Below are positions 10,266 to 45,219 of a stretch of 64,000 nucleotides of DNA, one piece after another. Where the stretch lies: NCBI RefSeq assembly GCF_015864665.1, contig NZ_JADYWU010000001.1, forward strand, positions 124,001 to 188,000, read 5' to 3'. The position numbers were made by a program, and so were the translations under genes. The stretch's first letter is position 1. The number at the start of each line of letters is the position of its first letter. The notes under the pieces were generated by a model. It ran no database searches. It worked only from the letters and a program-made list of their open reading frames with translations, and was not told the DNA's origin. Source of the DNA: Salinibacterium sp. SWN167 (GTDB taxonomy: Bacteria; Actinomycetota; Actinomycetes; Actinomycetales; Microbacteriaceae).

Positions 10266-10418
10266 ATCGTGCCTCCCACGTTTTTCACGGAGTTACCACT
10301 GCCTATGGTGTGAACTCTACGACTATTGCCGCATCCTCTCTAGGGGCGCCCACAAGAGACTCAGCCAATGCTGTGAAGAGCTTCCGATGCCGCCAAATCC
10401 TGTGTGAGAGAATCAACC

Positions 10419-10814
10419 ATGGCTGAATCGTGGCGTCGCACACCGACCGAAAGTCCTGTCACTTTCGAGATCGATACGGCAGCGTCCACTCCGCCGTTCG
10501 AGCAGATCAAAGCTCAAGCCATCGCTCAGATCGCGAGTGGTGAGCTTCTGGCTGGCACCAAGCTCGCAACCGTGCGACAGCTGGCCACCGACCTCGGCAT
10601 CGCCCCCAATACCGTGGCGCGGGCCTACCGCGAACTCGAGGCTGACGGTTTTCTGCACTCGCGCGGCCGCAATGGCACTGTCGTCAAGGCTCAGCCTGGC
10701 GATGCCGCAGCGCTTCTCCAACTTGAGGCCCGGGCCTACGCCAACCGCGCAGCAGAGCTCGGCATCAGCACGGACGAAGCACAGCGTTTCGTCGCGATCG
10801 CCCTCAAGGGTTAG
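10419..10814 (+). CDS. GntR-family transcriptional regulator (YtrA-like, short)
   Basis: A 131-aa regulator with an N-terminal winged helix-turn-helix: 'PPFEQIKAQAIAQIASGEL' followed by 'LATVRQLATDLGIAPNTVARAYRELE', the classic GntR helix 2/3 region. Only about 45 residues follow the DNA-binding domain. This matches the short YtrA subfamily, which usually controls ABC transporter genes and lacks a ligand-binding domain of FadR or HutC type. The ATG at 10419 is preferred over the GTG at 10404 because GAGAG lies upstream of it. It is divergent from ppsA and convergent with the response regulator gene. Its targets are not visible; the ABC exporter at 12856 is a candidate. Confidence 0.87.
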   Translation: MAESWRRTPTESPVTFEIDTAASTPPFEQIKAQAIAQIASGELLAGTKLATVRQLATDLGIAPNTVARAYRELEADGFLHSRGRNGTVVKAQPGDAAALLQLEARAYANRAAELGISTDEAQRFVAIALKG

Positions 10815-10860
10815 TCGACCAGAACAACAGCAGCGGGCCGAACGAGCGCTGCAGCCTGAA

Positions 10861-11481
10861 CTACCGCAGCACTCCCAGTTCGCGCGCCTTCGACACTGCA
10901 GCGGTACGCGACGACACATTTAGCTTCGAAAAAATGTGCACCAGGTGAGACTTCACCGTCGTTTGCGAGACAAAGATTTCTCCCGCGATCGCCGCGTTCG
11001 ACATCCCGGCGGCGACGCGCTCCAGCACCTCGATCTCGCGCTTGCTCAGACTCACTTGCGGAGCCCGCATCCGGTCTAGCAACCGGCCAGCGATCACGGG
11101 AGCCAAAGCGCTCTCGCCCGCAGCCGCAGCACGAACGGCCGCAATCAACTCATGGGGCGGCGCATCCTTCAGTAGATACCCGCTGGCACCAGCTTCTACG
11201 GCACCCAGGATGTCGCCATCGGTGTCGTAGTTGGTGAGAACCAACACGTACGGGGCAGCGTCGAGCGCGCGGATCCGGCGCGTGACCTCCGCCCCCGACT
11301 CCAGCTCCCCGAACTGCAGGTCCATCAAAATCACGCTCGGGTTCGCCGACTGCACGAGCGCAAAAGCTTCATCCGGCGTGGCCGCTTCCCCCACGACGGT
11401 GAGGTCAGTTTCGTGTTCGAGCAAGGCACGCAAACCAGCGCGGACGACCGGATGATCGTCGGCAATCGCCACCCGGATCAT
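10861..11481 (-). CDS. NarL/LuxR-family response regulator
   Basis: A 206-aa two-component response regulator. The receiver domain has the acidic pair D8/D9, the phosphoacceptor D54 in 'ILMDLQF', and a conserved lysine in 'GYLLKDAPP'. The C-terminal LuxR-type helix-turn-helix reads 'LSKREIEVLERVAAGMSNAAIAGEIF' and 'VSQTTVKSHLVHIFSKL'. It would be phosphorylated by the kinase encoded just upstream, with which it shares an ATGA overlap at 11478-11481, so the two are translationally coupled. The divergently transcribed ABC exporter at 12856 is the likely target, as is common for such trios. That regulatory link is inference. Confidence 0.93.
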   Translation of the reverse strand: MIRVAIADDHPVVRAGLRALLEHETDLTVVGEAATPDEAFALVQSANPSVILMDLQFGELESGAEVTRRIRALDAAPYVLVLTNYDTDGDILGAVEAGASGYLLKDAPPHELIAAVRAAAAGESALAPVIAGRLLDRMRAPQVSLSKREIEVLERVAAGMSNAAIAGEIFVSQTTVKSHLVHIFSKLNVSSRTAAVSKARELGVLR

Positions 11482-31900: not shown

Positions 31901-32463
31901 GCTCGCACGCGTCAACAGAGGGGCGGATGCTCGCCGGCGTCGCCCCTGGCCTGCACTCGGTGCCGACCGCTCATGTCGACAACTCAACGTTCGCGAGCGA
32001 AGAAGCCGACCGCGTGGTGGAGCTGGTGCGCGAGCACCTCGGAGCCCTCTGGACCTCGCAGGCCGGCGGCACCCCGAAGCCGCTCGACGAGGACGGCATC
32101 ATCGTGGTGACGCCGTACAACGCGCAGGTCGAACTCATCCGCGGTCGCCTCGATGCCGCGGGCTATTCGCGCGTCGTCGTGGGAACCGTCGACAAGTTCC
32201 AGGGCCGAGAAGCCGTCATCTCGATCGTGAGCCTCGCCGCCTCGAGCGCCGACGATGTGCCCCGCGGCCTCGACTTTCTGCTCTCCCGCAACCGCCTCAA
32301 CGTCTCGATCTCGCGCGCCCAATGGGCGGCGTACCTCGTCTACTCCCCCGCGCTGCTCGACTCGCTGCCGCAGACCGCGGAAGGGGTAGCGACGTTGAGT
32401 CGGTTTATCTCGTTGGTTGAGGGTGCTTCTTTCCCTGGTTCTTCGCTCACACAAGAGCTCTGA
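28936..32463 (+). CDS. TM0106-family RecB-like nuclease fused to superfamily 1 helicase
   Basis: An 1175-aa multidomain DNA- or RNA-processing enzyme. The N-terminal PD-(D/E)xK nuclease of RecB type shows D126, the pair D140-x-K142 in 'VVDSKLS' and the QxxxY motif Q154-Y158. A Cys-containing 'GRCKFCKEP' segment follows. A predicted RNase H-like DEDD exonuclease domain begins with 'FFDFEGDP' near residue 328. The C-terminal half is an SF1 (Upf1/Dna2-like) helicase with Walker A GPPGTGKT at 784-791, Walker B 'VIDEAG' around 899-904 and the late motif 'VGTVDKFQGREA'. It runs toward the accessory island and ends 35 bases before its last gene. A role in repair or defence is plausible; none is demonstrated. 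Confidence 0.92.
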   Translation: MYLLTDTALVTSASDLTQASNCEFGFLRVLDKRLGFSTDPLPDDDAMLLRAAELGNAHEARLRDRYRDEFGDAMVEFDKPPGRDAAVLRDYAERTRDALLAGAPVVFQGVFFDESDPESPFIGYADFLVKQPDASYRVVDSKLSRHVRVTALLQLAAYHEQLQKLGVSADGTVELILGNDTSELAAVADIAPVFRRRRARMHAIIAEHRAEGTPVDWHDERYARDGRCKFCKEPSQAADDLFTVAGLRAGQRTKFLAAGIRTLTDLAETEERPDDLAIPKASFAKLHLQAKLQHTVDPADSHAKPPVVVVDPLPIASLPAPNAGDLFFDFEGDPMYSEPGIGGTPRWGLDYLFGWVDAAGDFDCLWAHSLDEERTALRSFLKFVTERRQQHPGLHIYHYAAYEKTHLLSIAARHGEGEDVVDQLLREGVLVDLYPIVRGALRIGTPSYSIKKLEPLYMGDEERAGVTNAADSIGEYVESSVAAANGNMERATEIRDAIARYNEYDCVSTLKLRDWLRALPEVQGVTVDVDETELDVKAFEPSALDLQLQALGDDAEERGDDTAASAYRMAAAAIDYHRREVKSFWWEHYDRLEQPSELWEDTRGIFVVDSAMLTLDWHKEGRQRTERRHLYLRGQWAPGSSAPRPGGDVFLVYGNPLPYVPPGHRTGQRLARAVRFSDPAEDADGIFVIETRPDEIPAWDEMPTHITPGPPPRADSIVAAIEAWGETVVAAAPEWPDDAMSDLLLHKAPATVSALEPMTSADDGVRAVIASLVSRESGYLAVQGPPGTGKTYLAAHVIHELVERHHWKVGITAQSHKVVENVLDAVVLDANLNPELVAKAVPGEFGPGYYTEGPFSELPYNGHAGFALEHENSGYVIGGTAWDLTNRKRVQADQLDLLVIDEAGQFSLANTIGVAASAKRILLLGDPQQLPQVSQGIHPAPVDGSALGHVIGELAVLPDDFGYFLEESRRMDEAVTRPVSQLSYDGLLRSHASTEGRMLAGVAPGLHSVPTAHVDNSTFASEEADRVVELVREHLGALWTSQAGGTPKPLDEDGIIVVTPYNAQVELIRGRLDAAGYSRVVVGTVDKFQGREAVISIVSLAASSADDVPRGLDFLLSRNRLNVSISRAQWAAYLVYSPALLDSLPQTAEGVATLSRFISLVEGASFPGSSLTQEL

Positions 32464-32498
32464 AAGTGGGCCGAAGATCCGGCTGCCCCAGCTCGCCT

Positions 32499-34406
32499 CT
32501 ACCTTCCCCCAGTACCTAGCTGTGCCGCTCTTGCCGCATCTTGGATACCCTGATCCGGCCCAGCCCACACCTTTGTTATTGCGATTGCGAGTTGCTGCGC
32601 ACGATCGGCGATGTCCTTTTCAGTCCATTCAATTTGGCTCTCGAGCACCTCTTTGTTTAAAACTAAGAGGTTGAACTCATCGAGGACGCTCCACTTGCCT
32701 TTGCCAGTTTTGCCCCCAACGCTTAGCCCCACCGCTTGCGAATCGGTCCAGGGGCGATTCGATAGTGACGAGTTGAGTGCCTGGGTGACGAGAGTCAGAT
32801 TGCCGAGGGAATGAACCGCCTTGTCGCGCTTTTGCTCCTGCTCTGGCGTAAGCCGCGGGGTCGATGTCCAATGCTCTCGCCACTTTTGGGGCATGACATG
32901 CTCGATAGTGAGGCCAGTCGGCAGACTAACAGCTCCATATTTAGAACTAAGTGAACGCTTGTACGCCTCGACCGCACCAAGAACCACCGCGATTCGGCCT
33001 TGCTTGATGTTGCCGTACATCCGCGGAGCCCCGACTTCTGCGATAAACCGTGCATCAGTGGGCCACTCGCGTGTACCCGCCGTTTGTTCCGACAGAAATC
33101 TTCTAACTCGTTCACCCGCTTCTGCAGGATGCACTCCTTTGAGGGCCTTCAGCAATGCGACAATGAGCTTATTCATGTCCTTCGAAGTGAGTTGGAGGAG
33201 AGTCCGGCGGACAACCCAACTTTCCAGCGCATCAAGACCAATCGTGATCTGGCTATCCGGGATTGCGTGATTGTCCGAGATAACCCACAAGAAAATTGGG
33301 GTGGTCGCAGCAAGCTCCATGGCTTCGATCACTCGAGTACGGAACCGCCCCGGAACGGTGTCGGCGCTGAGAGCCCCGAGGCCTCGATAGGTATCCGCAT
33401 CGTTACGAAGCTCCGAGAGGAACGACTCAGCAGAAGCAGCATCCAACATCAGCGGCTCTGCGTAATCCCGGAACTCGTCGAAGATGCGATCCTGCCGCAC
33501 CTCGTCGCGCAGCCGCATCGTTAACCAATAGTGAAGAAAGATGTCGACACGGGAACGACTCATCCGGCCTTGCGTGATCTCCTCACGCCACCAATCGGTA
33601 TCAAAGTCCTCCCAGACAGTCTGTGACCACTTATCAACATCAGCGCCGAGCGTCTTGCCGAGCCGGAACACCCAGTTCTTAATGAGGTCCGCTTTCAGCA
33701 GTGGGGTGCCACGATCGTTCAGGGTCTCGAAGATTAGCTGTGCGTCGTCGTCACCCGTGAGGTCGATTGACACGACAACGAGACGGTTCGCGAGAGTCTC
33801 AGTGAGCTCGGCAGCGCGCTCCGCCTCAGTACCCGGCGGAACGTTTCCGTCGTCGTCCGGATGCCCCAGGAGCCAGCGACGAGCCTCGGCACTGAAAAAA
33901 TCGTGGGCGCCCTGAATCTGCCCGGACACCTCCGGCGTAGATTCGCTCTCCGGATCCATCGCGTGCTTGAATTCCTCCCGGTTCGCCTGAGAGGGCCATA
34001 ACTTGAAGCGCTCAGGCAACCCTTTGTACTTAGATTCCTTGTTGAGAATGAGCGCTTCAAGGCGCTCGACGTCGTCGATATGATCGCGACCGACGAGCAC
34101 TTCATGAGCGGCATCTATGAGAATCTGCATGGTGGTGAGGCGCTGCTGGCCATCGATCACATCGAGCCGCACAAGCCCGGTTGAGCTACCTTGACCTGCC
34201 TCGAAAACGACCGCACCCAAGAAGTGCGATGCCACGCGCTTCGCACCGTCGATAAGGTGAGTCTCCGTGACGCTGACGATGTCATCCCAGAGTGGCGCCC
34301 ACTGGTCCTCCTCTGTCCAAACGTAGGGCCGCTGGTAGGCAGGTATCTCGTAATGCTTAGGTCCCCAAAAGAGATCCCCGGGAGTAGCTTTGCTCGGCTG
34401 TTGCAT
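32499..34406 (-). CDS. DUF262/DUF1524 (GmrSD-like) nuclease of the accessory island
   Basis: A 635-aa protein. The N-terminal DUF262 domain has 'IPAYQRPYVW' (residues 21-30) and the nucleotide-handling motif 'VIDGQQRLTT' with DGQQR at 85-89. The C-terminal DUF1524 domain has an HNH-type active site, 'LTIEHVMPQKWREHW' and then 'HSLGNLTLV'. This is the architecture of the type IV restriction enzyme GmrSD, which uses NTP hydrolysis to cut modified phage DNA, and of related defence nucleases. It is the last gene of the island, on the same strand as the others but 188 bases after the methyltransferase. It may be expressed from its own promoter or be a separate module. Nucleolytic function is inferred from motifs. 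Confidence 0.9.
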   Translation of the reverse strand: MQQPSKATPGDLFWGPKHYEIPAYQRPYVWTEEDQWAPLWDDIVSVTETHLIDGAKRVASHFLGAVVFEAGQGSSTGLVRLDVIDGQQRLTTMQILIDAAHEVLVGRDHIDDVERLEALILNKESKYKGLPERFKLWPSQANREEFKHAMDPESESTPEVSGQIQGAHDFFSAEARRWLLGHPDDDGNVPPGTEAERAAELTETLANRLVVVSIDLTGDDDAQLIFETLNDRGTPLLKADLIKNWVFRLGKTLGADVDKWSQTVWEDFDTDWWREEITQGRMSRSRVDIFLHYWLTMRLRDEVRQDRIFDEFRDYAEPLMLDAASAESFLSELRNDADTYRGLGALSADTVPGRFRTRVIEAMELAATTPIFLWVISDNHAIPDSQITIGLDALESWVVRRTLLQLTSKDMNKLIVALLKALKGVHPAEAGERVRRFLSEQTAGTREWPTDARFIAEVGAPRMYGNIKQGRIAVVLGAVEAYKRSLSSKYGAVSLPTGLTIEHVMPQKWREHWTSTPRLTPEQEQKRDKAVHSLGNLTLVTQALNSSLSNRPWTDSQAVGLSVGGKTGKGKWSVLDEFNLLVLNKEVLESQIEWTEKDIADRAQQLAIAITKVWAGPDQGIQDAARAAQLGTGGR

Positions 34407-34446
34407 GTCACGATCACTGACTTTCTAGTTTCGAAGTGCACGATGT

Positions 34447-34470
34447 ACCATTCGTTGGACCCCGAATGGT
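34447..34470. repeat. Small inverted repeat in the gap before the DUF262 gene
   Basis: ACCATTCG (34447-34454) pairs with CGAATGGT (34463-34470). It is the only clear structure in the AT-rich 188-base gap between the methyltransferase and DUF262 genes. It could be an operator or a weak attenuator. Confidence 0.4.
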
Positions 34471-34594
34471 ATCGCTACATTCGTTGCACACCGAGTCTCG
34501 TGCGGCTATTTAGCGCTTTGCCCCACCGAATTGCATTTATGCGACTCTTATCGACATTCGAGGCGAATTGGACCCTGGGATCTGCATGCGCATC

Positions 34595-37500
34595 TCAAGT
34601 AAGCCCTTCATCAGAAAACAGAGCATTGACTTCATCAGTTGCGCTGGGAGCCTGACGCATCCAAACCGGCGGCTCCGGTATCTCCGTAGCGAGCACAATA
34701 GGGCCCCGCAGAATCTGGTCTAATATAGCGATCCCGGCGGGGACTACTGCAAGTGTCTCCTTAAGCACGGCCACAATTTCAATGAGTTCTCGGCTCCACT
34801 CAGGCGACCAGGACTCGGGTCGAATTTTGTCCAGAGGAGATTTGCTCGAGGCAGCACGACCTGCTGGTTTGGTCATGCGATATCCAAGCCACTTCGGGAT
34901 TACCCCCATGCCGCTTACTTCGAAGGAGTAAACCTCGGGCGAGACACCGATAAGCACGCCATCTGCCACATGGAGCTCGCCGGTGGAGGCATCATACGAG
35001 ATCTCCTTTTTGTCGGCGGGTAGTCGACTCGGCTCGGACCTCCATGTCACTCCAGCGAGCGGGAGCCCGCCCTGGCCGTCGGTGAAACGCTCCCCGAAGG
35101 TCTGAAGCCAAATCAACTTCGCGCCGTGGGTAGCCATGCGGTCGAATAGTTCCGGATCTCGTGTGAGCACCACCCGCGGTCCCGCCGTTTCCAAGGCCTT
35201 ATGGAAGCGCGTGGTGTAATCAGTTCCAGCGAGCACTCCAAAGGTATAGGCGAAAAGCCGCTCATGCGTCACGGCGGAGGCGCTAGGGACCTGTCTTTGG
35301 TGCCCCTCTGTTAGCGCAGCGAGCAGTTTTGGGTCGACATTAGGCATCCCCTTTGCGTCGCGATAGAGGGGAAATATATCCTTGCCACCCCGCCCGCTGA
35401 AATAGTGTTTATCTGGCACGGCGGTTGCCAAAGTTGCAGCTGGGCCCGCGCCAAGGCTAGTAGTCGTCATTGTTGTTAGGAATACCTGATTTTCAGAGAG
35501 TGCGGCCCATAGCGCTGGTCGCTCGAGGGCAATCAGTCTCGGATCGTTGAGGATCCACTGACGGTCGAATGACCGAAGTGCCGTGCGCGTTACTGGATTC
35601 GCCGGGGCCTTCGACGTGAGCTCAACTAGTGGCACCATTCCCGCAATTTTGGTCGCTATGCCCCTGCCGGTTTTCGACGTTGCGAAAGCCTCCCTCCGTT
35701 CTGTGGGGACGGCAGTCGAAACAAGCGCTTCCCAGCGCCGAAGCAGCGTGTCACGATCCGGTGCTACCGGCCAGGTCCTGTTGATCATCATCCCTGGCTG
35801 TTGCCATGGAAACAAGTCCGTGAGCGCCGGATACGACGCCCACTCTGGACCCCCCGCAGCGGGTATAAACGATCCATGCCAAGCGTCGGTCGCGTCAGTC
35901 GTCTTTAGCTCCGCGTCGCCCGCGGCCAAGCTGGCTAGCATCTCCAATTTCTCACCACGCGTCCCCCGGATGCTGGCGTATCGCACTGGTGAAGGAGTGG
36001 AGCGGTCCGCCTTGCCACGACGAACGAGGGTAACGATCGCGACGGGTGACTCAATATCAAAAACATTCTCGTCTTTGCGAGTCCCCTTATTGTCCCCATG
36101 AAGATCTAGCACGATGATCTCGTCAGCAACTTCACGCGCAAGCCGCCGTAAGCCTAGGAAACCGGGCCCGTCCAACCACGAGGATGCAGTGATCATCGAT
36201 ATGATCGCTGGGCCCGTATTCTCCTCGAACACCTTCCAGATTCCCCAACGCCAAAAATAAACGTAGAGGTTATACAGGCTCGCATGTGAGCTGAAGATTA
36301 CGTGCTTCTTCGCGTCGTCGAAGATATCGTCGAACAGAGACTTAGAACTCCCAGGCTTCGGAGCCCGGACGAATCCTCCGGTGCCGGTACTTTCTACCCT
36401 GTCATACGGCGGATTCCCAATTAGCACGTTGTGGTGTCGGTCGTATTTCACCTCATTTGCCAGCACACCTTCGACGCCGACGGGGTCCTCCATGCTCTTG
36501 AGGCGGGCTACGCGACGAGGGCCAAGGGTATCCCCGAGGAATATTGGCAAGCGTTCCTTCTCCCTCAATCCCTCCGGGAGCTCGAGGGAAACCTTGAGGT
36601 GGCTCACCGCGTACGAAGCAAGCGAGATCTCTAAAGCAGATGCTTGGTGCAGCGCCGTCTCGAGACCGCGCGAGCCTGCGTTCTTTTTCGCCTGTGCCAG
36701 CCACTCGACGAGGAAGGTACCGGTGCCGTTCGCCGGGTCAAACATGGAGACTACAGAATCGGTCAGATTAACGTTGGCGGGAGCCTCTATACCTGGGTGC
36801 GCTTTGACGTAATCCGACCAAGTCGTTGGATCGGCAACGCCGAGCGGCAGACCGAACGATTTCAAGGCATCGTCAACCGTTTTCACGATATAACGCACGA
36901 CTGGCTTAGGTGTGTAGAAAGCACCTAGATCTTTACGCTGCTGGGCATCGTACTGCGCGAGAAACTCCTCGTAGAAGTAGACTACCGGGTCATCCCGTTG
37001 GTTATCGGCGCCGAAGTCCGCTAACAACTCGTCGATATCAGTCTCAGCGAGCTGCTTCGCGAGGTCCGCAAGCCCGAGTTCATCGACGTCGATGACGCCG
37101 TCCCCCTCGTCCCGGAATCGCGCATAAATTGCGTCAAGGAACTCGTTGTCAAATCTAATCACCGCGAGTGAGCGCTCGGACTTGAACTGCTCGGGATGGG
37201 CAATTCGAGCCGTAAGCAGCCCGTAAACCATCGTCTGCGCGTATACGTCGGCAAAATTCTCTGCCGAGATGTCACCAATTAGACGTTCCCGCACATCCTT
37301 GTAGAGCGACCGCATGGGGCCACTCTCCGTTTCGACCGAGATCAGTGCCTTAACCTCATTACGAACATCCTGTGCCACCTCCGCCATCCGGCGCGAAAGA
37401 ATCTTCGCACTACGGATTCCTTCTCGGTACGCGGTAAATCCACTGGCGGCATTGGGTTCGACAACGAGCTTCGGTCCTTCGTCCCCGACCCACCGGAGCT

Positions 37501-38017
37501 CCGCGAGGGCGCGCTGCATAAGGAGTTTGAGTCGCGTTTCCGTGGGATTATCGCTCCACGAGAGGACGCGGAGGACTCGTACCCCATCTTCTTCATGAAA
37601 GTTAACTACATGGAGGGCTTTATTCGCCCCTCCGGACGAACAAAAGAAAATTAAGTCGTCAAGGTCCCAAGATGGGGCCTTTCCACTCCCCCTGCCGCGC
37701 TTGCTGGTAACGAGCCGCTGAACGAGACGTCGTATTGCGCCGATGGGGAGCTGGCCCCCTTCGAAGCGCAGATAGAAGGCACCAAACTTCTGCTTCGATG
37801 TCAAAGGTGGGATCTGGGAGATACCCACCAGTCGTGCCACTTGAGCCGGATCAAGGTGAAGCTCTTCCGGGCTCCAATCGAGCAACAATTCCTCCGGTTC
37901 AAGCTCTGTATCGTAAATCGGCCAGTCGAGCCCTTCATCCAGCAATGAAATGAAGTCGCTGAGCGACTGAGGCGCCGACTTGATGAGTACACGCATCCGC
38001 GCGTCGTTGACTGTCAT
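34595..38017 (-). CDS. Type ISP/IIG-like N6-adenine DNA methyltransferase
   Basis: A 1140-aa DNA methyltransferase with an N-terminal region of about 340 residues of unknown fold. It is followed by the helical lead-in 'AFYTPKPVVRYIVKTVDDAL' typical of type ISP enzymes such as LlaGI. The SAM motif I is 'DPANGTGTFL' (427-436) and the catalytic motif IV is NPPY (535-538), which indicates N6-adenine methylation. The C-terminal 500 residues look like the type ISP target-recognition region ('INRTWPVAPDRDTLLRRWEAL'). Neither the nuclease nor the helicase part of full-length ISP enzymes is present. The ATG at 38017 overlaps the helicase stop (ATGA) and has GAGG upstream; an ATG at 38035 is an alternative. 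It probably marks self DNA and supplies specificity. Confidence 0.9.
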   Translation of the reverse strand: MTVNDARMRVLIKSAPQSLSDFISLLDEGLDWPIYDTELEPEELLLDWSPEELHLDPAQVARLVGISQIPPLTSKQKFGAFYLRFEGGQLPIGAIRRLVQRLVTSKRGRGSGKAPSWDLDDLIFFCSSGGANKALHVVNFHEEDGVRVLRVLSWSDNPTETRLKLLMQRALAELRWVGDEGPKLVVEPNAASGFTAYREGIRSAKILSRRMAEVAQDVRNEVKALISVETESGPMRSLYKDVRERLIGDISAENFADVYAQTMVYGLLTARIAHPEQFKSERSLAVIRFDNEFLDAIYARFRDEGDGVIDVDELGLADLAKQLAETDIDELLADFGADNQRDDPVVYFYEEFLAQYDAQQRKDLGAFYTPKPVVRYIVKTVDDALKSFGLPLGVADPTTWSDYVKAHPGIEAPANVNLTDSVVSMFDPANGTGTFLVEWLAQAKKNAGSRGLETALHQASALEISLASYAVSHLKVSLELPEGLREKERLPIFLGDTLGPRRVARLKSMEDPVGVEGVLANEVKYDRHHNVLIGNPPYDRVESTGTGGFVRAPKPGSSKSLFDDIFDDAKKHVIFSSHASLYNLYVYFWRWGIWKVFEENTGPAIISMITASSWLDGPGFLGLRRLAREVADEIIVLDLHGDNKGTRKDENVFDIESPVAIVTLVRRGKADRSTPSPVRYASIRGTRGEKLEMLASLAAGDAELKTTDATDAWHGSFIPAAGGPEWASYPALTDLFPWQQPGMMINRTWPVAPDRDTLLRRWEALVSTAVPTERREAFATSKTGRGIATKIAGMVPLVELTSKAPANPVTRTALRSFDRQWILNDPRLIALERPALWAALSENQVFLTTMTTTSLGAGPAATLATAVPDKHYFSGRGGKDIFPLYRDAKGMPNVDPKLLAALTEGHQRQVPSASAVTHERLFAYTFGVLAGTDYTTRFHKALETAGPRVVLTRDPELFDRMATHGAKLIWLQTFGERFTDGQGGLPLAGVTWRSEPSRLPADKKEISYDASTGELHVADGVLIGVSPEVYSFEVSGMGVIPKWLGYRMTKPAGRAASSKSPLDKIRPESWSPEWSRELIEIVAVLKETLAVVPAGIAILDQILRGPIVLATEIPEPPVWMRQAPSATDEVNALFSDEGLT

Positions 38018-41000
38018 ACGACCTCGATCCAACATATTGTTTCAGGCGCTGGTGCATCCAACGGCACTTGCATCTCTTTGCGGAGTTGCTTGGTCTCGTC
38101 GCGTTCAAAGCTACGCAAATCCGCTAGGAGCTGCGAAGACTCTCGAAACCCAGCGGCTGGTGAATTGCTGTTCGATTCGATAGCGGAATCGACTCGAAGA
38201 AGACCGCGCTCAACACCGGCACTGGATTTGAGTGCCCACTCGACTCGGCCTGGCTTAGTGCTCCACGACGACTGCGCCTCGTCGAGGGCCTTAGTAAGTA
38301 CTGGCACGCGACGGCAGAGGAACAGTCCTTTGGGCTCGCCAGTTTTCGCTACCGATATTCCGTCAGGAAGTCGCTGAACGAGGTCGTCGATGCCAGGATT
38401 AGCCTTCACGAGCGCGAGCCACTTGAGACGGAGATGCTCTAGAGGAGAGACATCGCCGTTGTACTCGTCCTTAAATGCTTGGAACACCTTGACGTCATCG
38501 AACATGTCCGACTCATCCAGAAGCTTCCCGCCGGGGATACCCAAGGTTTTCGAGATCATCAGTGTCTTACCATGGACCCGGTTATGCAGCTTGATTAGTG
38601 TCTCGATTTCGTCGGGCGGTAGGAAATTACGAATCTGGATGTGCCCACGGGACTTCGCCAACTTCGGGCGGTCTTTGATAATCGCCGCCTCGATTTCCGG
38701 GTTCATACGACGGTCAACACGACCAATGCGCTGCATGAGACGGACTGGATTCCAGTGGATGTCATAGTTGACTATCAGCGAGCCGTCCTGCAGGTTCACC
38801 CCCTCACTAAGCACGTCTGTAGAAACGAGCACCCGCAACGGGGAAAGCTTCTTGCGCCCCTCGGCGTCGACCTTGTTGTAGTAGGGCGAGAAGCGTTTGA
38901 TCATCGCAAAGCGATCATTCCCCCGGCTGCCGTCAATGCGGTCTACTTCCTCAACACCATCTGCCCGGAGTCGTTCTTCGATGTAGCGCGCGGTGTCAGC
39001 GAACTCGGTGAAGATGATCACCTGTTGAGTTCGGAACTCCTCCGTAAAGATTGCGCCGTCTGTAGATGCCTTCGCGGCCTTAGAAGGGCCACGAAGCAGC
39101 GTGCGAAGCTTGTCGTATTTATCGTCAAAGCCAGCACCGTCGAGAATCAATTCCATAAACCGCGTGAGTTGATCAAGATCGCCAAAAGCTGCGTCAACCA
39201 TTTCATCAAGCTTGAAACTTCCGCCGACCAAGTTCCACTCGAGCTCCTCGAGTTCTTCCTCAGTCAGATCTTGATCGTGCCAGACTTCATCCAATACAGC
39301 ACGGTATGTTTCATGGATCGCTTTAAGCGTGATTTCATTCTTCGCTCGCCATTCGGTTAGCCGCCCAAAACCCGCGACGTCGCCTTTTACGTTGACGTCA
39401 AGCCAGTGAAGAATCTTTGCTGACAAGTCGAGGCACGAGCCAGCGAACGCAGCGAGGCTCGACTCGAACCGCTTGAGGAAGATAGTTCGAATGAGTGCGA
39501 CAATTTGTCGTTGCCTATTCTCCAGAACCGTATCCACATCTCCGTCAGTAGAGAATGCCAGCGGGTAGTACATCGGCAATACGAACAGGGGTGACTTCTT
39601 GCTGAAGGCGGCTTGGATTTCATTGAATAGTGGCGCGTAGAGCAACCCGAATTCGTACGGCACGACCTTCGGCACTTGGGTGTCAGGGAAGACGACCTCG
39701 GCACCACCCGCGAGCTTCGCGCTATCGACCGCGTAGCGGCGACTGCTCTGGTGAATGATCGCTTGGAGGAGCTTGTCTTGGTCCATCAACGCATCAATCA
39801 CTGAGTGGTCTGGGACTAGGTCCTTGAACGGTTTCTCTAAACCGATGACGTACTTGCGAAGACTGCTGACTCCGATGCTCGAGAAATGACTATCGGCGTC
39901 GACGCCCGTAAAAAGCTCGGCTTGATGCACCAAATCGAAAAAATTGTTGTTGATCGGCGTGGCCGTCAACAGAAAAACAGTCTTCCCTTTACAAATCTCG
40001 TGCATACGCCACCATCGGGAGCCCCAAGGGTTTTCGTCAGACGGTGACTTTCCGTGGTTTCGGAAATTATGTGCCTCGTCGATGATGATTATATCGGCAC
40101 GCTTAGCAAGATGCTCGATCTCCTCGGCTCCGGCATTTGTTGATAGGTCTGTGTGCGCTTTGACAATGAGGTTTGAGAACTGGCCACCGTAAAGTTCTGG
40201 CAATTTGTCCTTGATCTCCGGATTCCACACCGCATCCTGACCGGTCTTCGTCGCCATAATCAAAACGTTCTTACGCTGCCGGACTGCGAAGTACTCAGTA
40301 AGCATCAGCCCGACATAAGTCTTACCAAGACCTACACCATCGGTGAGAAACCCTCCTCCCCACTGCTTCGACATCTCGACCAACGAGTGGAAAGCTTCCT
40401 GCTGGTATGGCGCAAGTTTGGGATAAATGACCGACTCAGACTCTTCCCAGCTTTTGTCGGTGGCGTCAGTGTTCGCGGTTAGCGCTCTTAACGCCTTCGC
40501 GTAGACCTCAAACGGCGTGAACTCACGGACATTGTGATCGAGCACGGCCAGAAGCTCTGGGCCCACTGCGACCGCTTTGCCCCAATGTTCCTCGTACCAA
40601 GACTGAAGGTCGTTGACTTCCGGGCCTTGAAACTTGACGTTCAGCTCGATGTTTTGGGTGAGGCCGGGCCGGGTGAAGTTTGAGGAGCCTACGAGTGCTG
40701 CAGAGCCAACGACTTTGAGCTTGCTATGGGTAATGTACGCCTTTGCGTGAAACTTTTTCGTCGTATAGACACGAATCTCGATCTTGCCCGAGCGGATGCC
40801 GTCAACCACTCCGTCAATTCCAGTTAGCAAGGCATCACCCTGCTGTCGCTCAATTTTGATAGAAGTGTCAAGAGCTGCGGCGATGGCGTCCGCGGTAGTT
40901 CTGCTCGTCTCACCACCGATGAGCAGTCGAATTTTGTCGACCTTCTGCCAGGCACCGTCGAGGGCTAGAAACGCACCGATTTCGAAGTGCCCCGTGGCGA

Positions 41001-41100
41001 TGTCAATCGCATCGCTGATCTCGCACCATTCGCGAACGTACTGAAGGGCTTTCCAATCCTCAGAAGCGTTATCCACTATGAACTGGTCAGATGTTGCCAT
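38014..41100 (-). CDS. PLD-nuclease/SNF2-helicase fusion protein
   Basis: A 1028-aa protein with a phospholipase D-type domain at the N-terminus (residues 1-170). It contains H118 and K120 in 'FHAKAYI' and the 'GSSNFTRPG' loop at 138-146, but His takes the place of the usual motif Asp. A SWI2/SNF2 helicase follows: 'TDGVGLGKTYVGL' (Walker A K260), DEAH at 341-344, 'LLTATPINNN', and motifs V/VI 'STDVLSEGVNLQDG' and 'QRIGRVDRR'. This combination is seen in predicted restriction systems, where the PLD part cuts DNA and the helicase translocates. It is coupled to the methyltransferase by an ATGA overlap and lies 18 bases after the HEPN gene. DrmD of DISARM has a similar helicase but without its drmA/drmB partners here. 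Confidence 0.9.
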   Translation of the reverse strand: MATSDQFIVDNASEDWKALQYVREWCEISDAIDIATGHFEIGAFLALDGAWQKVDKIRLLIGGETSRTTADAIAAALDTSIKIERQQGDALLTGIDGVVDGIRSGKIEIRVYTTKKFHAKAYITHSKLKVVGSAALVGSSNFTRPGLTQNIELNVKFQGPEVNDLQSWYEEHWGKAVAVGPELLAVLDHNVREFTPFEVYAKALRALTANTDATDKSWEESESVIYPKLAPYQQEAFHSLVEMSKQWGGGFLTDGVGLGKTYVGLMLTEYFAVRQRKNVLIMATKTGQDAVWNPEIKDKLPELYGGQFSNLIVKAHTDLSTNAGAEEIEHLAKRADIIIIDEAHNFRNHGKSPSDENPWGSRWWRMHEICKGKTVFLLTATPINNNFFDLVHQAELFTGVDADSHFSSIGVSSLRKYVIGLEKPFKDLVPDHSVIDALMDQDKLLQAIIHQSSRRYAVDSAKLAGGAEVVFPDTQVPKVVPYEFGLLYAPLFNEIQAAFSKKSPLFVLPMYYPLAFSTDGDVDTVLENRQRQIVALIRTIFLKRFESSLAAFAGSCLDLSAKILHWLDVNVKGDVAGFGRLTEWRAKNEITLKAIHETYRAVLDEVWHDQDLTEEELEELEWNLVGGSFKLDEMVDAAFGDLDQLTRFMELILDGAGFDDKYDKLRTLLRGPSKAAKASTDGAIFTEEFRTQQVIIFTEFADTARYIEERLRADGVEEVDRIDGSRGNDRFAMIKRFSPYYNKVDAEGRKKLSPLRVLVSTDVLSEGVNLQDGSLIVNYDIHWNPVRLMQRIGRVDRRMNPEIEAAIIKDRPKLAKSRGHIQIRNFLPPDEIETLIKLHNRVHGKTLMISKTLGIPGGKLLDESDMFDDVKVFQAFKDEYNGDVSPLEHLRLKWLALVKANPGIDDLVQRLPDGISVAKTGEPKGLFLCRRVPVLTKALDEAQSSWSTKPGRVEWALKSSAGVERGLLRVDSAIESNSNSPAAGFRESSQLLADLRSFERDETKQLRKEMQVPLDAPAPETICWIEVV

Positions 41101-41118
41101 TATTGGCGCCTTTCGCGT

Positions 41119-42201
41119 TCAACTAAGGTGTCCCGGAAACCACTCGGAGTCAGTAACAGTGGCGATGCGCTCGACACCGTGCGCGTCAGCAACTGAAATG
41201 ACATCTCCGTACGTTGTTACTCTGAGAAATGTTCCACTTGCCACGTTAGCGGAGGGGTCCCACTTCAGACGTTCTTCAGTGTCGAGGTCTACAACCGTGT
41301 CTTCATCGATGTAGTAGTAATGAGGGAGGAAAAATCCCCGTGCGACCTCATCGACTGGGTCCGTCCCGAGGTAGCCCAGGAGCCTAGGGGTGGCGCCTAT
41401 GTAGCCACCAAGAGCGCCATCTATGAGATCGACCCACACCTCACGCCCTCGCGGCTCCACAGCAGTCCACGCGCGAAATTTCTCGTCGAAGTCGCCAACC
41501 ATTTGAGTGCGGAGCGATTCCATCGTGTCCGGGTGAATAATGTCTCTTGATCTCGTAATCCTGTACCTAAGCTGTGGGATTTGACCGATCCAAGTCCCAC
41601 CGATACTCGGCCTCGGCAAGTCGGCTGGAAGCTCCAAGATTGCGTCCTCGCTCTCAGCAACAGTTTGGGAGCCGGTCCCGCGGTCCGCTACAGCCGCGGA
41701 ATGCGCAGGATGGCTGCCAGAGTGGATGCTCTCGAGGCGCGCGATGAGCTGACCAACACGAGGTTGAATGTGCATTCCGCTTTCCGCTACGAAGCTGTGT
41801 ACGACCTTCGCCGCCTCGGTAAGTTGTGCCAAGGTCGGGTCGCCGCCGAAGTGAAACCACGTGTTTCTCGTCCCCAATATCTTCCGCGCATGGTTTCGCT
41901 TCCCGGACCCCGCACCGAATACGCTTGCGTAGGGGGTATCTCGCTCGAAAACATAGTCGCGGAGAACCACCGAGCAGTCTTGGGGTTCAAACTTGTGATT
42001 TGGGTTCCAATTTGTTGGGTCCTCCCTCGTGAGTTCGCCTAGCCGCTCAGCGAACCAATGGGGGCCGTGCGATTCTCGCAAAGCGAAGTGAGCCGTTACG
42101 TAAAGGTCCCAACCGAACGCTTTCATTAAGGTGTAGTAACCCTTGACTAGCTCGCCAGCGCTCTCGTCCTCGGGAAGGGCAATGTTGACGTCTACATTCA
42201 C
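41119..42201 (-). CDS. Swt1-type HEPN domain protein
   Basis: A 360-aa protein whose first 140 residues resemble the Swt1/HEPN helical domain: 'LMKAFGWDLYVTAHFALRE', then 'NHARKILGTRNTWFHFG', with an Arg112-x4-His117 pair matching the RX4-6H catalytic motif of HEPN RNases. 'AKVVHSFVAESG' forms the last helix. The C-terminal 200 residues are of unknown type and end in a beta-rich region. HEPN proteins often cleave RNA to abort infection. RNase activity here is inference from one motif. The start overlaps the stop of the 199-aa gene (ATGA), so translation is coupled. Confidence 0.78.
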   Translation of the reverse strand: MNVDVNIALPEDESAGELVKGYYTLMKAFGWDLYVTAHFALRESHGPHWFAERLGELTREDPTNWNPNHKFEPQDCSVVLRDYVFERDTPYASVFGAGSGKRNHARKILGTRNTWFHFGGDPTLAQLTEAAKVVHSFVAESGMHIQPRVGQLIARLESIHSGSHPAHSAAVADRGTGSQTVAESEDAILELPADLPRPSIGGTWIGQIPQLRYRITRSRDIIHPDTMESLRTQMVGDFDEKFRAWTAVEPRGREVWVDLIDGALGGYIGATPRLLGYLGTDPVDEVARGFFLPHYYYIDEDTVVDLDTEERLKWDPSANVASGTFLRVTTYGDVISVADAHGVERIATVTDSEWFPGHLS

Positions 42202-42797
42202 AAGTTCGGCCCCTCAGAAAAAGCCTTCCCGTGCGCTTTCATAATCGGGACGATGCGGGTCGCGGCATATACAGCGAATAGCGGCGCGGGGTCATCCGTC
42301 GAGACCGTGACCGCTGGCTCGAGCTTGAAACGCGTGGCGGGCGGGAAAAGGTCGGCGTAAGCCCCGGTTCTGACCGCTCCCAGTTCGGCGAGAACTGCTT
42401 GCGCGTCGCCGTTTACGAGCTCGTCGATTCCCGACCAGTCGATAGTGTCTAGGCTCGCCCGTTCACTTCCTTCTTTGTACCTAAGCGCGCGAATTCGCGC
42501 CACGAGATCACCCCCGACGAATTTCGGCGCAAGCTCGCCTGCGCTCTTGAGGCGTTCGTAGTCTGCGGGGCCGCCAAGAAGCTCCGCTAGACGCAGCGAA
42601 ACCTCGTCGCCACTGGGCCAAGTCACTAGTGCGATTTGGGCGCGCAGTCCATCATCTGTCCGCATGTTCGCAAGCGCGCATGTTCCCGTCTGATGCGCCC
42701 CATCCCCGCGCCACTGGCTAGTGGGAATACCAGTAAACGGGAATCGACCATCAAGTACTTCAACTTCTACCGTTGCGATTGTGAATTTAGCGCTCAT
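42198..42797 (-). CDS. Unknown 199-aa protein of the accessory island
   Basis: I do not recognise the family. The protein is soluble, starts 'MSAKFTIATVEVEVLDGRFPFTG' and appears to be mixed alpha/beta, with no membrane segments and no catalytic signature. It sits between the AIPR-like and HEPN genes, 13 bases after the first and overlapping the second by ATGA, so it is surely part of the same operon. A partner, adaptor or immunity role for the HEPN protein is possible. Base composition is as AT-rich as the neighbouring island genes. Confidence 0.75.
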   Translation of the reverse strand: MSAKFTIATVEVEVLDGRFPFTGIPTSQWRGDGAHQTGTCALANMRTDDGLRAQIALVTWPSGDEVSLRLAELLGGPADYERLKSAGELAPKFVGGDLVARIRALRYKEGSERASLDTIDWSGIDELVNGDAQAVLAELGAVRTGAYADLFPPATRFKLEPAVTVSTDDPAPLFAVYAATRIVPIMKAHGKAFSEGPNL

Positions 42798-42810
42798 ATC
42801 TGTTTTTTAC

Positions 42811-44211
42811 TCACTTAACCGTCTTGGCAAGCGCGGCCTGATATGCGGTGGTGATGACCTGGTATGCAAGGGGAGCTTTGCCGACGCGGACCGGGTCCCA
42901 ATCCAGCGCGGAAACAACCGCCTTGTACGCCTCAGCGATTGATCCGATGTTTTCTCGAATGAATTGCACGGGGTCAACGCGCCATTCCACGAGACCGTCA
43001 GCGGACTGAGTCATCAACTCACGCACTCCGTAGACCACCGGATATAGGAAACCATCCGGGCTGGCCACAGGAATTGCTCGACCTTCGAAGTTTGTGGCCT
43101 TCGACCTCCCGCTCGCGTTCATCTTCTTGACCGCGCCGATACGCCCGTACTTTCCGTCGGCCTTGTTGTACGCATCGGGAAAGAGTTCCTCGATAAGGTC
43201 GAACACCTCTGGCATTTTGGAAGCGACTTTCAGAGCACTGTACACGCGCTGATTGTGCAACTCGAACGTGCCCCCTTGTTCAGAAGTTACAACGCTAAGA
43301 CGCATAAACCCGTCAAACTTGGTCAAGCACTCGCCCTTGTTGCGGTACAAGTTCTGCGGAATCGGTGGAACAATCGGCTTTTCTTTGGGGTCCGCGGGCA
43401 TCGGCTCGAGAATGCTTAGCGGAATCCAAGTGAGAGCGATCAAGTCGGAGACTTTCACGGCCCCGCCCTGCCCTGTCTTCCACTCGATACGCGCCGCGAT
43501 AGGTGAAGGCAACAAGTCTTTGAGGTTGTCGTAGAAACCAGCCTGATTCGACTTTCCCGCGACAACAAGCTCGGCGTTGTTATTGCGTGCGGCACAGATT
43601 TCCAGAATGGAGGATTGGAATTCGTTCACCACAACGACATCATCGGGATCGCTTGGGACGATCAGCTCGACGGGGACGAGGAAACCTAACTCATCGTTTT
43701 CTGACGGCTCTTGTTGCCCGAACGCGGAGAGTTCTCCCCGGAATTGTTTGACGGCGTCGGCTTCCGCATCCCACAGCTGGCGGAACGAAGCCCAATCTCG
43801 AGCCTTTCGAACACTCTTATCGGCGACGCCCGCTGCCCTGAGAATGTGCAGGCCGATCGCCATCGTGTTGTGCCCGCCATCAAGAATCCCCTCCTTGTCC
43901 CGCTCTATGAACTCGGCACGGACGCGACCGCGGTCGAGAACCTCGAAAAGCGTAGCCCCGAGCAGAACCCCCTTCGTCTTAAACGGAAACTCTTTGGGCG
44001 TCGTGTGTATCGATTCGATTATGGCGTCGGTAACGCGGCCAACTCGGGCCGCTCGAGGGTTCGCTTCAAGGTCAAGAGCATCGATTACGGCGATGAAATG
44101 CCGTGCTCGCACGAAACCGGAAATTCGAGTTATGCGGCCAGCAGTCTGCTTGGCAAGCTGTTCGAATTTGATAGTGATGACCGCAGGGGCGGGGGTAATG
44201 ACGTCCGACAT
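42811..44211 (-). CDS. AIPR-like / DGQHR-like protein, first gene of the island operon
   Basis: A 466-aa protein. The N-terminal part contains 'GILDGGHNTMAIGLHIL', with DGGH at residues 111-114, similar in position and style to the DGQHR motif of DndB-like proteins and the NGxQT motif of abortive-infection AIPR proteins (PF10592). It is followed by 'VNEFQSSILEICAARNNNAEL', which resembles the AIPR 'ATNxQ' region. AIPR proteins are linked to phage resistance, but their biochemistry is poorly known. The frame extends upstream, but the ATG at 44211 has a GGAAGGAA ribosome site and is the natural start. The leader of about 200 nt in front carries a terminator hairpin. Family assignment is tentative. 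Confidence 0.72.
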   Translation of the reverse strand: MSDVITPAPAVITIKFEQLAKQTAGRITRISGFVRARHFIAVIDALDLEANPRAARVGRVTDAIIESIHTTPKEFPFKTKGVLLGATLFEVLDRGRVRAEFIERDKEGILDGGHNTMAIGLHILRAAGVADKSVRKARDWASFRQLWDAEADAVKQFRGELSAFGQQEPSENDELGFLVPVELIVPSDPDDVVVVNEFQSSILEICAARNNNAELVVAGKSNQAGFYDNLKDLLPSPIAARIEWKTGQGGAVKVSDLIALTWIPLSILEPMPADPKEKPIVPPIPQNLYRNKGECLTKFDGFMRLSVVTSEQGGTFELHNQRVYSALKVASKMPEVFDLIEELFPDAYNKADGKYGRIGAVKKMNASGRSKATNFEGRAIPVASPDGFLYPVVYGVRELMTQSADGLVEWRVDPVQFIRENIGSIAEAYKAVVSALDWDPVRVGKAPLAYQVITTAYQAALAKTVK

Positions 44212-44256
44212 GAGGTGTTCCTTCCGATGAGGGAAGAACTCCTGGCCCTGAGATGG

Positions 44257-44279
44257 AAAAAGCCGGCGTCCGCCGGCTT
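44257..44279 (-). terminator. Intrinsic terminator/attenuator in the leader of the island operon
   Basis: AAGCCGGCG (44260-44268) pairs with CGCCGGCTT (44271-44279). Read on the minus strand, the GC-rich stem is followed by a run of T residues (44261-44257). It lies about 45 bases before the start of the AIPR-like gene and about 140 bases after a candidate promoter, so it would stop transcripts before the operon unless readthrough occurs. It may alternatively simply block readthrough from the gene ending at 44548. Confidence 0.72.
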
Positions 44280-44289
44280 CTGCAATCTC

Positions 44290-44311
44290 GAGTTCCACGT
44301 TCTTGGAACTC
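44290..44311 (-). promoter_or_regulatory. Leader hairpin upstream of the attenuator
   Basis: GAGTTCC (44290-44296) pairs with GGAACTC (44305-44311). The stem sits just ahead of the terminator in the transcript, as expected for a leader with several structural elements. Confidence 0.5.
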
Positions 44312-44328
44312 TGAGTTTTCCAGAAGCC

Positions 44329-44421
44329 CTATCCAGGGTTACTGAGTTGTGTCGCGGCCTTCGCAGGTCCGCCAAATGGGATGAAGCCCTTTCGTCCGTC
44401 CGGAAGAAAGTAGATAAACAT
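44329..44421 (-). CDS. Possible 30-aa leader peptide
   Basis: A 31-codon frame with ATG at 44421 and stop at 44329 begins 'MFIYFLPDGRKGFIPFGGP' and ends before the leader hairpins. It has no clear Shine-Dalgarno sequence, and the candidate -10 box overlaps its ATG, which argues against translation unless transcription starts further upstream. It is included because of its position in an attenuator-like leader and should be treated as speculative. Confidence 0.25.
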   Translation of the reverse strand: MFIYFLPDGRKGFIPFGGPAKAATQLSNPG

Positions 44422-44445
44422 CTCATAATCGCGAGCGCTCGTCAA
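44417..44445 (-). promoter_or_regulatory. Candidate promoter of the island operon
   Basis: On the minus strand TTGACG (-35, 44445-44440) is followed after 17 bases by GATGTT (-10, 44422-44417). The spacer contains the palindrome CGAGCGCTCG (44432-44441), which could be an operator. An upstream tract of T/A residues (44449-44460) could act as an UP element. The remaining part of the 336-base gap 44212-44547 holds the leader structures and a second palindromic CTGAAC-AG-GTTCAG element at 44504-44517. Confidence 0.5.
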
Positions 44446-44547
44446 GACTTTTTTTGTTTTGATCGGATTCAGTGGCGCTTCGACGGTTTACACCCCTAAA
44501 ACACTGAACAGGTTCAGCGCTAAAATTCCGCCACCGAATCTCGCAGG

Positions 44548-45219
44548 TCAAGCGCCCGAGAATAGCCGCGCAGGCTTCCCCACCGTGCCGGCGGCGAGCT
44601 CGCCCGTCGCCGCGAGTTGCGGTTCCATGGCGCGCCGGAAGCTGTCGCGCATGAGGGGTTCGCCGGCGACGGTTTCGTGCAGGTGCTGCAGTTGGCGGAG
44701 GGTGAAGGGGTGCTCCAGCAGGCCGGCCGGGTCGGGGGCTGCCGCGTAGCGTGTGCGGAGGGTGGCCACCGCTTGGTCGAGGATGTCGTTGTGGCCATAC
44801 GGGAGGGCGCCAGCATCCGCCACCGGCACTACCTTCGCGAGGGACTCGTCGATCGTGAGGCTCGGCCACGGCACCACATCGAGGTGGGCGACCGACAGCA
44901 CCCAGCCGCGATTGTCGCGGGCAGGGTCATCGAAAACGTGGAGCTGGCGGGGCGACAAGCCCGAGACTCCGGCCTTGGTGCGGAGGGAGCGCAGCACGGC
45001 ATCCGCCAGCAACTCGCCCTCGTGCAGGAAGGTGCCCGGCAGGCGCCAGGCGGTGCCGGTGCCGGTACCGGTGCCAGTGCCGACGCCAGCTCCCGCGCGC
45101 ACCAGCAGCGCGCTGAGCTCGCCGCCCGGCGGAACCGTGAGCACCGCGGTGTCGACGGCGACGGAGGGGCGCGGATAGTCGGTCAGGGCCCGGTCGTGTG
45201 AGTCGCGGTAGATCTCCAT
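44548..45219 (-). CDS. NrtR-like Nudix-domain transcriptional regulator
   Basis: A 223-aa protein with an N-terminal Nudix fold ('AVDTAVLTVPPGGELSALLVR') and a C-terminal winged helix region ('FTLRQLQHLHETVAGEPLMRDSFRRAM') like NrtR, a repressor of NAD-related genes that senses ADP-ribose. The Nudix box is degenerate: the REUxEE core reads RSLRTK (residues 77-82), so catalysis is not expected. This supports a sensory role. A run of five Gly-Thr pairs (residues 47-56), encoded by hexamer repeats, lies before the box. The gene is divergent from the ARPP-1/ADP-ribosylglycohydrolase operon, which it probably controls. Confidence 0.85.
   Translation of the reverse strand: MEIYRDSHDRALTDYPRPSVAVDTAVLTVPPGGELSALLVRAGAGVGTGTGTGTGTAWRLPGTFLHEGELLADAVLRSLRTKAGVSGLSPRQLHVFDDPARDNRGWVLSVAHLDVVPWPSLTIDESLAKVVPVADAGALPYGHNDILDQAVATLRTRYAAAPDPAGLLEHPFTLRQLQHLHETVAGEPLMRDSFRRAMEPQLAATGELAAGTVGKPARLFSGA
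45052..45081 (-). repeat. Hexanucleotide repeat encoding (Gly-Thr)5
   Basis: Five near-identical GGTGCC-type hexamers lie inside the Nudix-like regulator gene and encode alternating Gly-Thr. Two units differ by one base. Such repeats can expand or contract in frame. Confidence 0.75.

Follow-up and report, generated by a model that had tools for sequence, protein, structure and literature searches.

A two-gene cassette apparently exchanged between unrelated restriction-modification cores at a defence locus of Salinibacterium sp. SWN167

Closest described systems and layout of the locus

At least 16 clades of HEPN proteins are linked to restriction-modification (R-M) operons, with PrrC as the model, and a suicide role as a second line of defence has been put forward for HEPN genes that neighbour R-M systems (PMC3710099). 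Type ISP enzymes are single chains with an Mrr nuclease (PMC3874165), BREX-related Type-2 (BR) systems comprise an HKD-SNF2 helicase, an N6-methyltransferase (MTase), DUF499 and DUF3780 (PMC12839542), and CxC/PbeABCD systems combine an HKD endoDNase-SF2 helicase fusion, a DNA methylase, a small protein, an ABC ATPase and DndE (PMC10853773). AIPR is an additional protein of a different R-M-like system (PMC9523054), and DUF262/DUF1524 proteins are summarised in PMC10952713. Here we analysed a six-gene operon of Salinibacterium sp. SWN167 within a stretch of 64,000 nucleotides (the window; contig NZ_JADYWU010000001.1, positions 124,001 to 188,000). The locus is a stack of modules, namely an R-M core, an AIPR-like protein, a two-gene cassette (u199-HEPNb) and a GmrSD-like nuclease, not a single new system, and the cassette is its new part. 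The features are as follows, in window coordinates.

42811..44211, minus strand: AIPR-like protein, 466 amino acids; the open reading frame (ORF) extends to 44298 with GTG; the stretch EGILDGGHN is invariant in five relatives
42198..42797, minus strand: u199, cassette gene 1, 199 amino acids, compact alpha/beta protein without a family match
41119..42201, minus strand: HEPNb, cassette gene 2, 360 amino acids; Swt1-HEPN-like helical domain (about 15-161), disordered linker (164-195), beta-rich C-terminal domain
38014..41100, minus strand: R/translocase subunit, a PLD-nuclease/SNF2 helicase (PLD-SNF2) with intact HxK...GSSN, Walker A, DEAH and motif VI
34595..38035, minus strand: M+S subunit, an N6-adenine DNA MTase whose C-terminal specificity domain is of Type ISP; start probably at 38017; motifs DPANGTG and NPPY intact
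32499..34406, minus strand: GmrSD-like Type IV nuclease (DUF262 + DUF1524), loosely attached; DGQQR present
32434..44559, no strand: variable defence-hotspot insert, delimited by congener flank alignments

The ORF listing of the window confirmed six minus-strand genes at 32499..44211, ordered (5' to 3' of the operon) AIPR, u199, HEPNb, PLD-SNF2, ISP MTase and GmrSD. Their placement in an AT-richer block, as the initial annotation had it, was borne out by a GC fraction (2-kb windows) of 0.53-0.59 within the block vs 0.59-0.68 outside. The tight coupling it had described for the first five genes held for the 13 bases between AIPR and u199, the 18 bases between HEPNb and the helicase, and the ATGA overlap of helicase and MTase, provided that the MTase starts at its seventh codon, like the homologue in Agromyces (locus L016); the four-base overlap of u199 and HEPNb, however, is GTGA and not ATGA, the HEPNb start codon being GTG. 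The AIPR ORF as listed begins with GTG at 44298, and ATG at 44211 agrees better with the relatives. Promoter and terminator scans gave matches no more numerous than in shuffled sequence.

Domain searches upheld the parts as initially named. The GmrSD protein matched GmrSD_N (E 8.1e-36) and GmrSD_C (E 1e-19) in Pfam and thus carries both DUF262 and DUF1524. The MTase matched Type_ISP_C (PF18135, E 3.6e-66) and N6_Mtase (E 2.6e-7) as well as LlaBIII (894-1174, E 3.5e-14) and LlaGI; no Pfam nuclease family was matched within its chain. The helicase matched PLDc_2 (E 4e-10), SNF2-rel (E 2.7e-6) and Helicase_C (E 4.5e-16) in Pfam and a PbeA model (1.5e-13); in the scan of the six proteins it also matched one DrmA model partially (1.5e-15), more weakly than C3a139 and DrmD. 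Motifs were compared in 15 helicases and 15 MTases (the 11 cassette loci described below plus L021, L051, L054 and L060). Walker A and motif VI were found in all 15 helicases, the PLD stretch HxK...GSSN in 14 (missing in L008) and the DEAH pattern in 13 (L007 and L015 unmatched), and MTase motif IV, (N/D)PP(Y/W), was present in 15/15 MTases; in L010, L011, L012, L014, L016 and L017, MTases and helicases were named by their similarity to relatives scanned against Pfam. The window AIPR protein scored 14.6 bits against AIPR (PF10592; curated cut-off 25), and five of five relatives matched this family weakly (best E 3.4e-4), so that the AIPR label, like the HEPN label discussed below, draws support from relatives.

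Like the Type ISP enzymes LlaGI and LlaBIII, the core pairs an N6-MTase with an ISP C-terminal specificity domain, and helicase-driven restriction would be expected of it; unlike them, it consists of two chains with a PLD nuclease on the SNF2 helicase, whereas ISP enzymes hold an Mrr nuclease in one chain. The N-terminal HKD nuclease on an SNF2 helicase, together with an N6-MTase, is also found in BR Type-2 (PMC12839542), but DUF499 and DUF3780 were unmatched in the six proteins, and DUF499 in the whole own genome (3.0 Mb, 3 contigs). The HKD-SF2 helicase with its PbeA match, the methylase and the small protein recall CxC ABC-ATPase/PbeABCD, but the ABC ATPase and DndE were unmatched among the six proteins. 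The DrmD-like SNF2 helicase recalls DISARM class 1 (DrmD, DrmMI), but its 130 bits lie far under the DrmD cut-off of 610, and the DrmB-type MZB domain (PF09369, which we take to be the former DUF1998) gave no match in the whole own genome, although the same model matched in 8 of 14 control genomes. PglZ of BREX and DUF499 likewise had no match there (2/14 and 1/14 control genomes matched, respectively), and the BrxC ATPase none among the six proteins; to this extent, the absence of DISARM and BREX core partners stated in the initial annotation stood. For MADS, the model of the MAD2 methyltransferase has a cut-off of 720 bits, and the score was 15.6. Membership in DISARM, BREX, BR Type-2, Pbe and MADS was rejected, the defining parts looked for (MZB, PglZ, DUF499/DUF3780, ABC ATPase/DndE and MAD2) having given no match or, for MAD2, one far under the cut-off. 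The initial annotation had matched the operon to no named system; a modular stack takes the place of one unnamed system here. A search of the open literature for the PADLOC model names gave nothing.

PrrC, a HEPN anticodon nuclease that stands guard over the Type Ic R-M system EcoprrI, offers a parallel to the locus in that a HEPN protein is encoded with an R-M system (PMC3710099); here, in contrast, there is no ABC ATPase domain match, a small partner (u199) is present, and one cassette accompanies several unrelated R-M families. GmrSD/BrxU Type IV enzymes share DUF262 and DUF1524 in one chain, but here the protein is an add-on beside an R-M core. No description of the u199-HEPNb cassette was found in the available parts of the open literature searched (PMC3710099, PMC12839542, PMC10853773, PMC9523054, PMC10952713 and PMC3874165).

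The u199-HEPNb cassette beside unrelated cores

The cassette was recovered at 11 distinct full-length loci: the window, L006 (=L013), L007, L008 (=L018), L010, L011, L012, L014, L015, L016 and L017. L006 and L013 (Terrimesophilobacter mesophilus) have proteins 99.8-100% identical and were counted once; a 12th locus is interrupted by a contig end. At all 11, u199 stands immediately before HEPNb with overlapping stop and start codons (4 bases in nine loci, 1 base in two), and an N6-MTase and an SNF2 helicase lie in the same cluster, the helicase at most 6 kb away (from a few-base overlap with HEPNb up to 5.7 kb). The associated MTases belong to unrelated families: ISP, Eco57I, MmeI and D12. L014 has u199-HEPNb-PLD-SNF2-ISP (56/60/76/70% identity to the window); L011 has this gene order too, with GmrSD about 5 kb upstream on the opposite strand. 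L006, L010 and L012 show u199-HEPNb-Eco57I MTase-PLD-SNF2, and L017 has that order with AIPR between HEPNb and the Eco57I MTase. L015 carries u199-HEPNb-PLD-SNF2-Eco57I MTase followed by an AAA_5 gene and an McrBC gene, L007 has u199-HEPNb convergent with PLD-SNF2-MmeI and GmrSD beyond, and L008 (Aquiluna) has u199-HEPNb-D12 MTase-DUF6997-DndB-small ORF-SNF2 without PLD.

The cassette was rare in the searches made, and all named loci bearing it belong to Actinomycetota. The genome samples of the family, phylum and order overlap: the P0005 search matched 4/249 family genomes (own included), the A1 search 1/396 phylum and 1/396 order genomes (the own genome in both), and the A3 search 5/329 family genomes, counting the own genome and one fragmentary match at the end of a contig. 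With one genome scanned per species (84,980 species), short peptide patterns yielded nine cassette loci, two of which duplicated known ones. An earlier scan of genome contigs with u199 short peptide patterns only had found no relative, and this type of scan misses much, because u199 genes of 53-56% identity exist in the scanned genomes. Neither u199 nor HEPNb had a copy on 72,556 plasmid records, HEPNb had none on 50,697 phage records, and viral-contig scans gave no relative of the cassette. The PLD-SNF2 profile at E 1e-80 matched the own genome only among 346 phylum genomes.

We compared the identities of the encoded proteins over the 11 loci. Those of u199 and HEPNb covaried (rho 0.88, p 0.001), neither cassette protein covaried with the MTase (rho -0.06 and -0.10), a weak correlation linked MTase and helicase (rho 0.32, p 0.0095), and u199 and helicase gave rho 0.42 (p 0.067). 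Within seven loci grouped for close cassettes, the cassette-helicase correlation was 0.25 (p 0.24) and 0.00. Between L010 and L014 the cassette proteins are 88/84% identical, the helicases 27% and the MTases 18%; between L014 and L016 the helicases are 80% and the MTases 70% identical, and the cassette 41/30%. Breaks in DNA homology were located in 13 pairs chosen by us from nine regions (L007 and L008 left out). For L010 and L014, which have different cores, homology (9405-11076, 87.4%) opens at the u199 start codon and ends about 11 bases beyond HEPNb, and for L010 and L011, whose cores likewise differ, it opens about 80 bases ahead of u199 and ends 7 bases short of the HEPNb end (85.2%); outside the cassette, alignment in both pairs is limited to a helicase stretch of 110-136 bases. 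Homology between the window and L016 starts at the helicase start codon, with an additional AIPR stretch, the cassette there being too diverged to align. Two pairs thus show clean cassette edges, and other breaks fall within HEPNb. Taken together, these comparisons point to u199-HEPNb as a unit swapped between unrelated defence systems.

A separate break was seen in the MTase. The operons of L010 and L012 are about 90% identical in DNA, and their homology is interrupted only where the Eco57I MTase has its C-terminal third (L010:13620-15018); L006 and L017 break at about the same position. This third is likely the specificity domain, and the break is probably a case of specificity switching.

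The cassette proteins themselves are distant from described families. Window HEPNb and u199 had no match in Pfam (E 0.1), PADLOC or NCBIfam (E 0.01). With E values to 1 allowed, seven of the 11 HEPNb members matched HEPN_Swt1, the best at 6.6e-4, and L006 HEPNb reached 15.7 bits against a curated cut-off of 27.5; the Swt1-HEPN label of HEPNb thus gains some weak support from relatives. The motif RNTWFH lies at residues 112-117 of the window protein (an R-x4-6-H motif in an all-helical domain), with N113 and H117 in 11/11 loci and R112 in 10/11. The AlphaFold2 model of HEPNb (predicted local distance difference test, pLDDT, 81.5; predicted template-modelling score, pTM, 0.49) was helical at 15-161, disordered at 164-195 and mainly strands beyond 250, and that of u199 (pLDDT 89.8, pTM 0.89) had mixed strands and a C-terminal helix. 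Foldseek searches of the PDB with the u199 and HEPNb models gave best E values of only 0.36 and 0.42, and of BFVD with the u199 model 0.089, not significant. Orthomyxovirus PB2 recurred as a candidate fold relative of u199 at TM-scores of at most 0.34, and Tox-GHH2 (E 0.015) and DUF4210 (E 0.17) were each matched by one of 11 u199 members; all three were taken as chance.

Companion modules and the genomic setting

The six-gene order that the initial annotation had proposed searching for elsewhere is present in Agromyces L016 (identities for AIPR, u199, HEPNb, PLD-SNF2, ISP MTase and GmrSD of 49, 32, 37, 77, 74 and 23%, respectively), so it is not a chance assembly confined to this genome, and the composite defence operon was confirmed. 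The GmrSD gene is loosely attached: a 188-base gap separates it from the MTase gene, and its product shares 23% identity with the L016 copy, against 77% for the helicase and 74% for the MTase. As separate observations on GmrSD-type and further genes, in L011 (M. flavum) a GmrSD gene near the cassette (L011:2457-4637) also encodes a RAMA domain (E 6.1e-19), and a DUF3644 gene comes after the MTase (L011:17506-18567). DrmD-like SNF2 helicases without PLD occur in or near four of the 11 cassette loci (L006:53-2608, L014:11677-12870, L017:4674-7862 and L008:15582-18992), the L008 copy matching PDLC02623 at E 3.9e-133.

Relatives of the window AIPR at 40% identity or more numbered nine, window included (with L016, L017, L019, L020 and L051-L054); this number excludes three more Roseomonas records, whose match values were the same, and seven plasmid records of 20-27% identity. 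In five of the nine, an MTase and PLD-SNF2 lie downstream of AIPR, with the cassette interposed in the window and L016. L054, an IMG/VR provirus contig, has AIPR-PLD-SNF2-ISP MTase with an ATGA overlap and no cassette, and L051 has AIPR-Eco57I MTase-PLD-SNF2, also without a cassette. L020 and L052 have no MTase in the stretch examined, and L053 ends at the contig end. The L054 genes (L054:7827-16004) lie directly beyond genes that resemble phage lysis genes by eye, and the core may be riding on a phage there. L019 is on a Roseomonas mucosa plasmid, where a transposase and, among insertion sequences, an Eco57I MTase fragment come after the AIPR relative (L019:11995-15237), apparently a core copy that has decayed. 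The modular view follows from these arrangements: core and AIPR occur alone (L054, L051), the cassette pairs with other cores, and GmrSD is loose.

The operon is located in a defence hotspot. Five congeners align with the window on either side, as far as about 32434 and about 44559, with differing cargo between, and in two further congeners just the 44560-side flank was found within the 20 kb compared. One congener's hotspot (L046) holds DUF499. The hotspots of two congeners contain a trio of ORFs of 2154, 742 and 140 amino acids with like N-termini (L044:4830-14044 and L047:9291-18505), in the same orientation relative to the shared flank.

Proposed function and alternative explanations

The gene order, the overlapping frames, the intact catalytic motifs and the same cassette beside unrelated cores are observed. 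The reading we favour, at just short of even confidence, is a split Type-ISP-like, ATP-dependent R-M system carrying a plug-in PrrC-like backup cassette. By its motifs, the MTase-specificity protein would recognise a DNA site and methylate adenine on self DNA; by domains and conserved motifs, on unmethylated DNA it would load or license PLD-SNF2, which would translocate and cut. The AIPR-like protein, judged from its position, may be an accessory regulator or sensor for the core, and GmrSD would probably contribute restriction of modified phage DNA. HEPNb would be an RNase silenced by u199 and/or the intact R-M complex; once phage had blocked or overwhelmed the core, HEPNb would be released and growth would stop before the phage spreads, by analogy with PrrC and EcoprrI. 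We infer the RNase activity of HEPNb, its inhibition by u199 and the trigger, and the combination of restriction with a suicide RNase, which the initial annotation had offered as inference, keeps that standing here.

Several points weigh against the backup-cassette reading. The HEPN match is weak, with none for the window's own HEPNb and none for four of 11 members; the motif arginine is replaced by L in L008; the HEPNb model has no significant PDB match (Foldseek); and hhalign of the HEPNb profile against one DUF499-fused HEPN_Swt1 gave no match, a weakly informative result with a single-sequence template. Between distant members, the beta-rich C-terminal half of HEPNb has diverged less than the HEPN half (46 vs 34% identity between window and L016, 32 vs 14% between window and L008), and the HEPN half may not be the essential one. 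An antitoxin role of u199, which is without known relatives, would be read from position and overlap. In L007 the cassette is convergent with the core and outside its operon. Exchange would not be wholly free, given that HEPNb identities over all 11 loci partly track those of the helicase (rho 0.56, p 0.019), and some breaks miss the cassette edges: homology of L010-L015 and L011-L015 (different cores) starts 80-260 bases before u199 and ends about 150 bases inside HEPNb, and that of L014-L016 starts about 380 bases inside HEPNb.

Some of these points would suit cassette proteins that act as adaptor or assembly subunits bridging MTase and SNF2 translocase, the HEPN-like fold serving for dimerisation or nucleic-acid binding only. 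All 11 cassette copies accompany an MTase + SNF2 core and none was found elsewhere, the HEPN arginine is missing in L008, and the C-terminal domain is equally or better conserved than the HEPN part in seven of the eight pairs examined; related cores nevertheless lack the cassette (ISP in L054, Eco57I in L051), and 88/84% identical cassettes with unrelated MTase families are hard to reconcile with a tight structural subunit; we consider this role unlikely. A plain toxin-antitoxin addiction pair, hitch-hiking in defence islands and stabilising them, would account for two overlapping genes with the smaller first, a HEPN-like fold and a unit beside unrelated cores, but we hold it to be distinctly improbable. 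It was lowered because no cassette locus without an R-M core was found: context-blind searches, limited to short peptide patterns and overlapping genome samples, gave no copy outside R-M loci, and the plasmid records (and, for HEPNb, the phage records) held none. The earlier suggestion that the six genes form one obligate novel system has the identical order in Agromyces on its side, but the window-type AIPR was not found in the stretches examined at eight cassette loci (L006, L010, L011, L012, L014, L015, L007 and L008), L054 and L051 lack the cassette and GmrSD identity falls to 23%; subsets occur on their own, and we rejected this suggestion as very improbable.

Beyond the backup-cassette reading of this locus, we tentatively consider, as a possibility with the balance somewhat against it, that the cassette is a portable, core-independent guard. 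In it, u199 would be a sensor or inhibitor of apparently new fold and HEPNb its RNase; the pair would fit any N6-MTase + SNF2-translocase core (ISP, Eco57I, MmeI or D12), read a feature shared by them and arrest growth upon core failure. It is unusual for one gene pair to sit nearly unchanged beside cores with unrelated methyltransferases, and we know of no other that does. If the cassette is such a guard, it must sense a generic feature of restriction, such as translocation, complex integrity or unmethylated sites, and what a guard senses would become directly testable.

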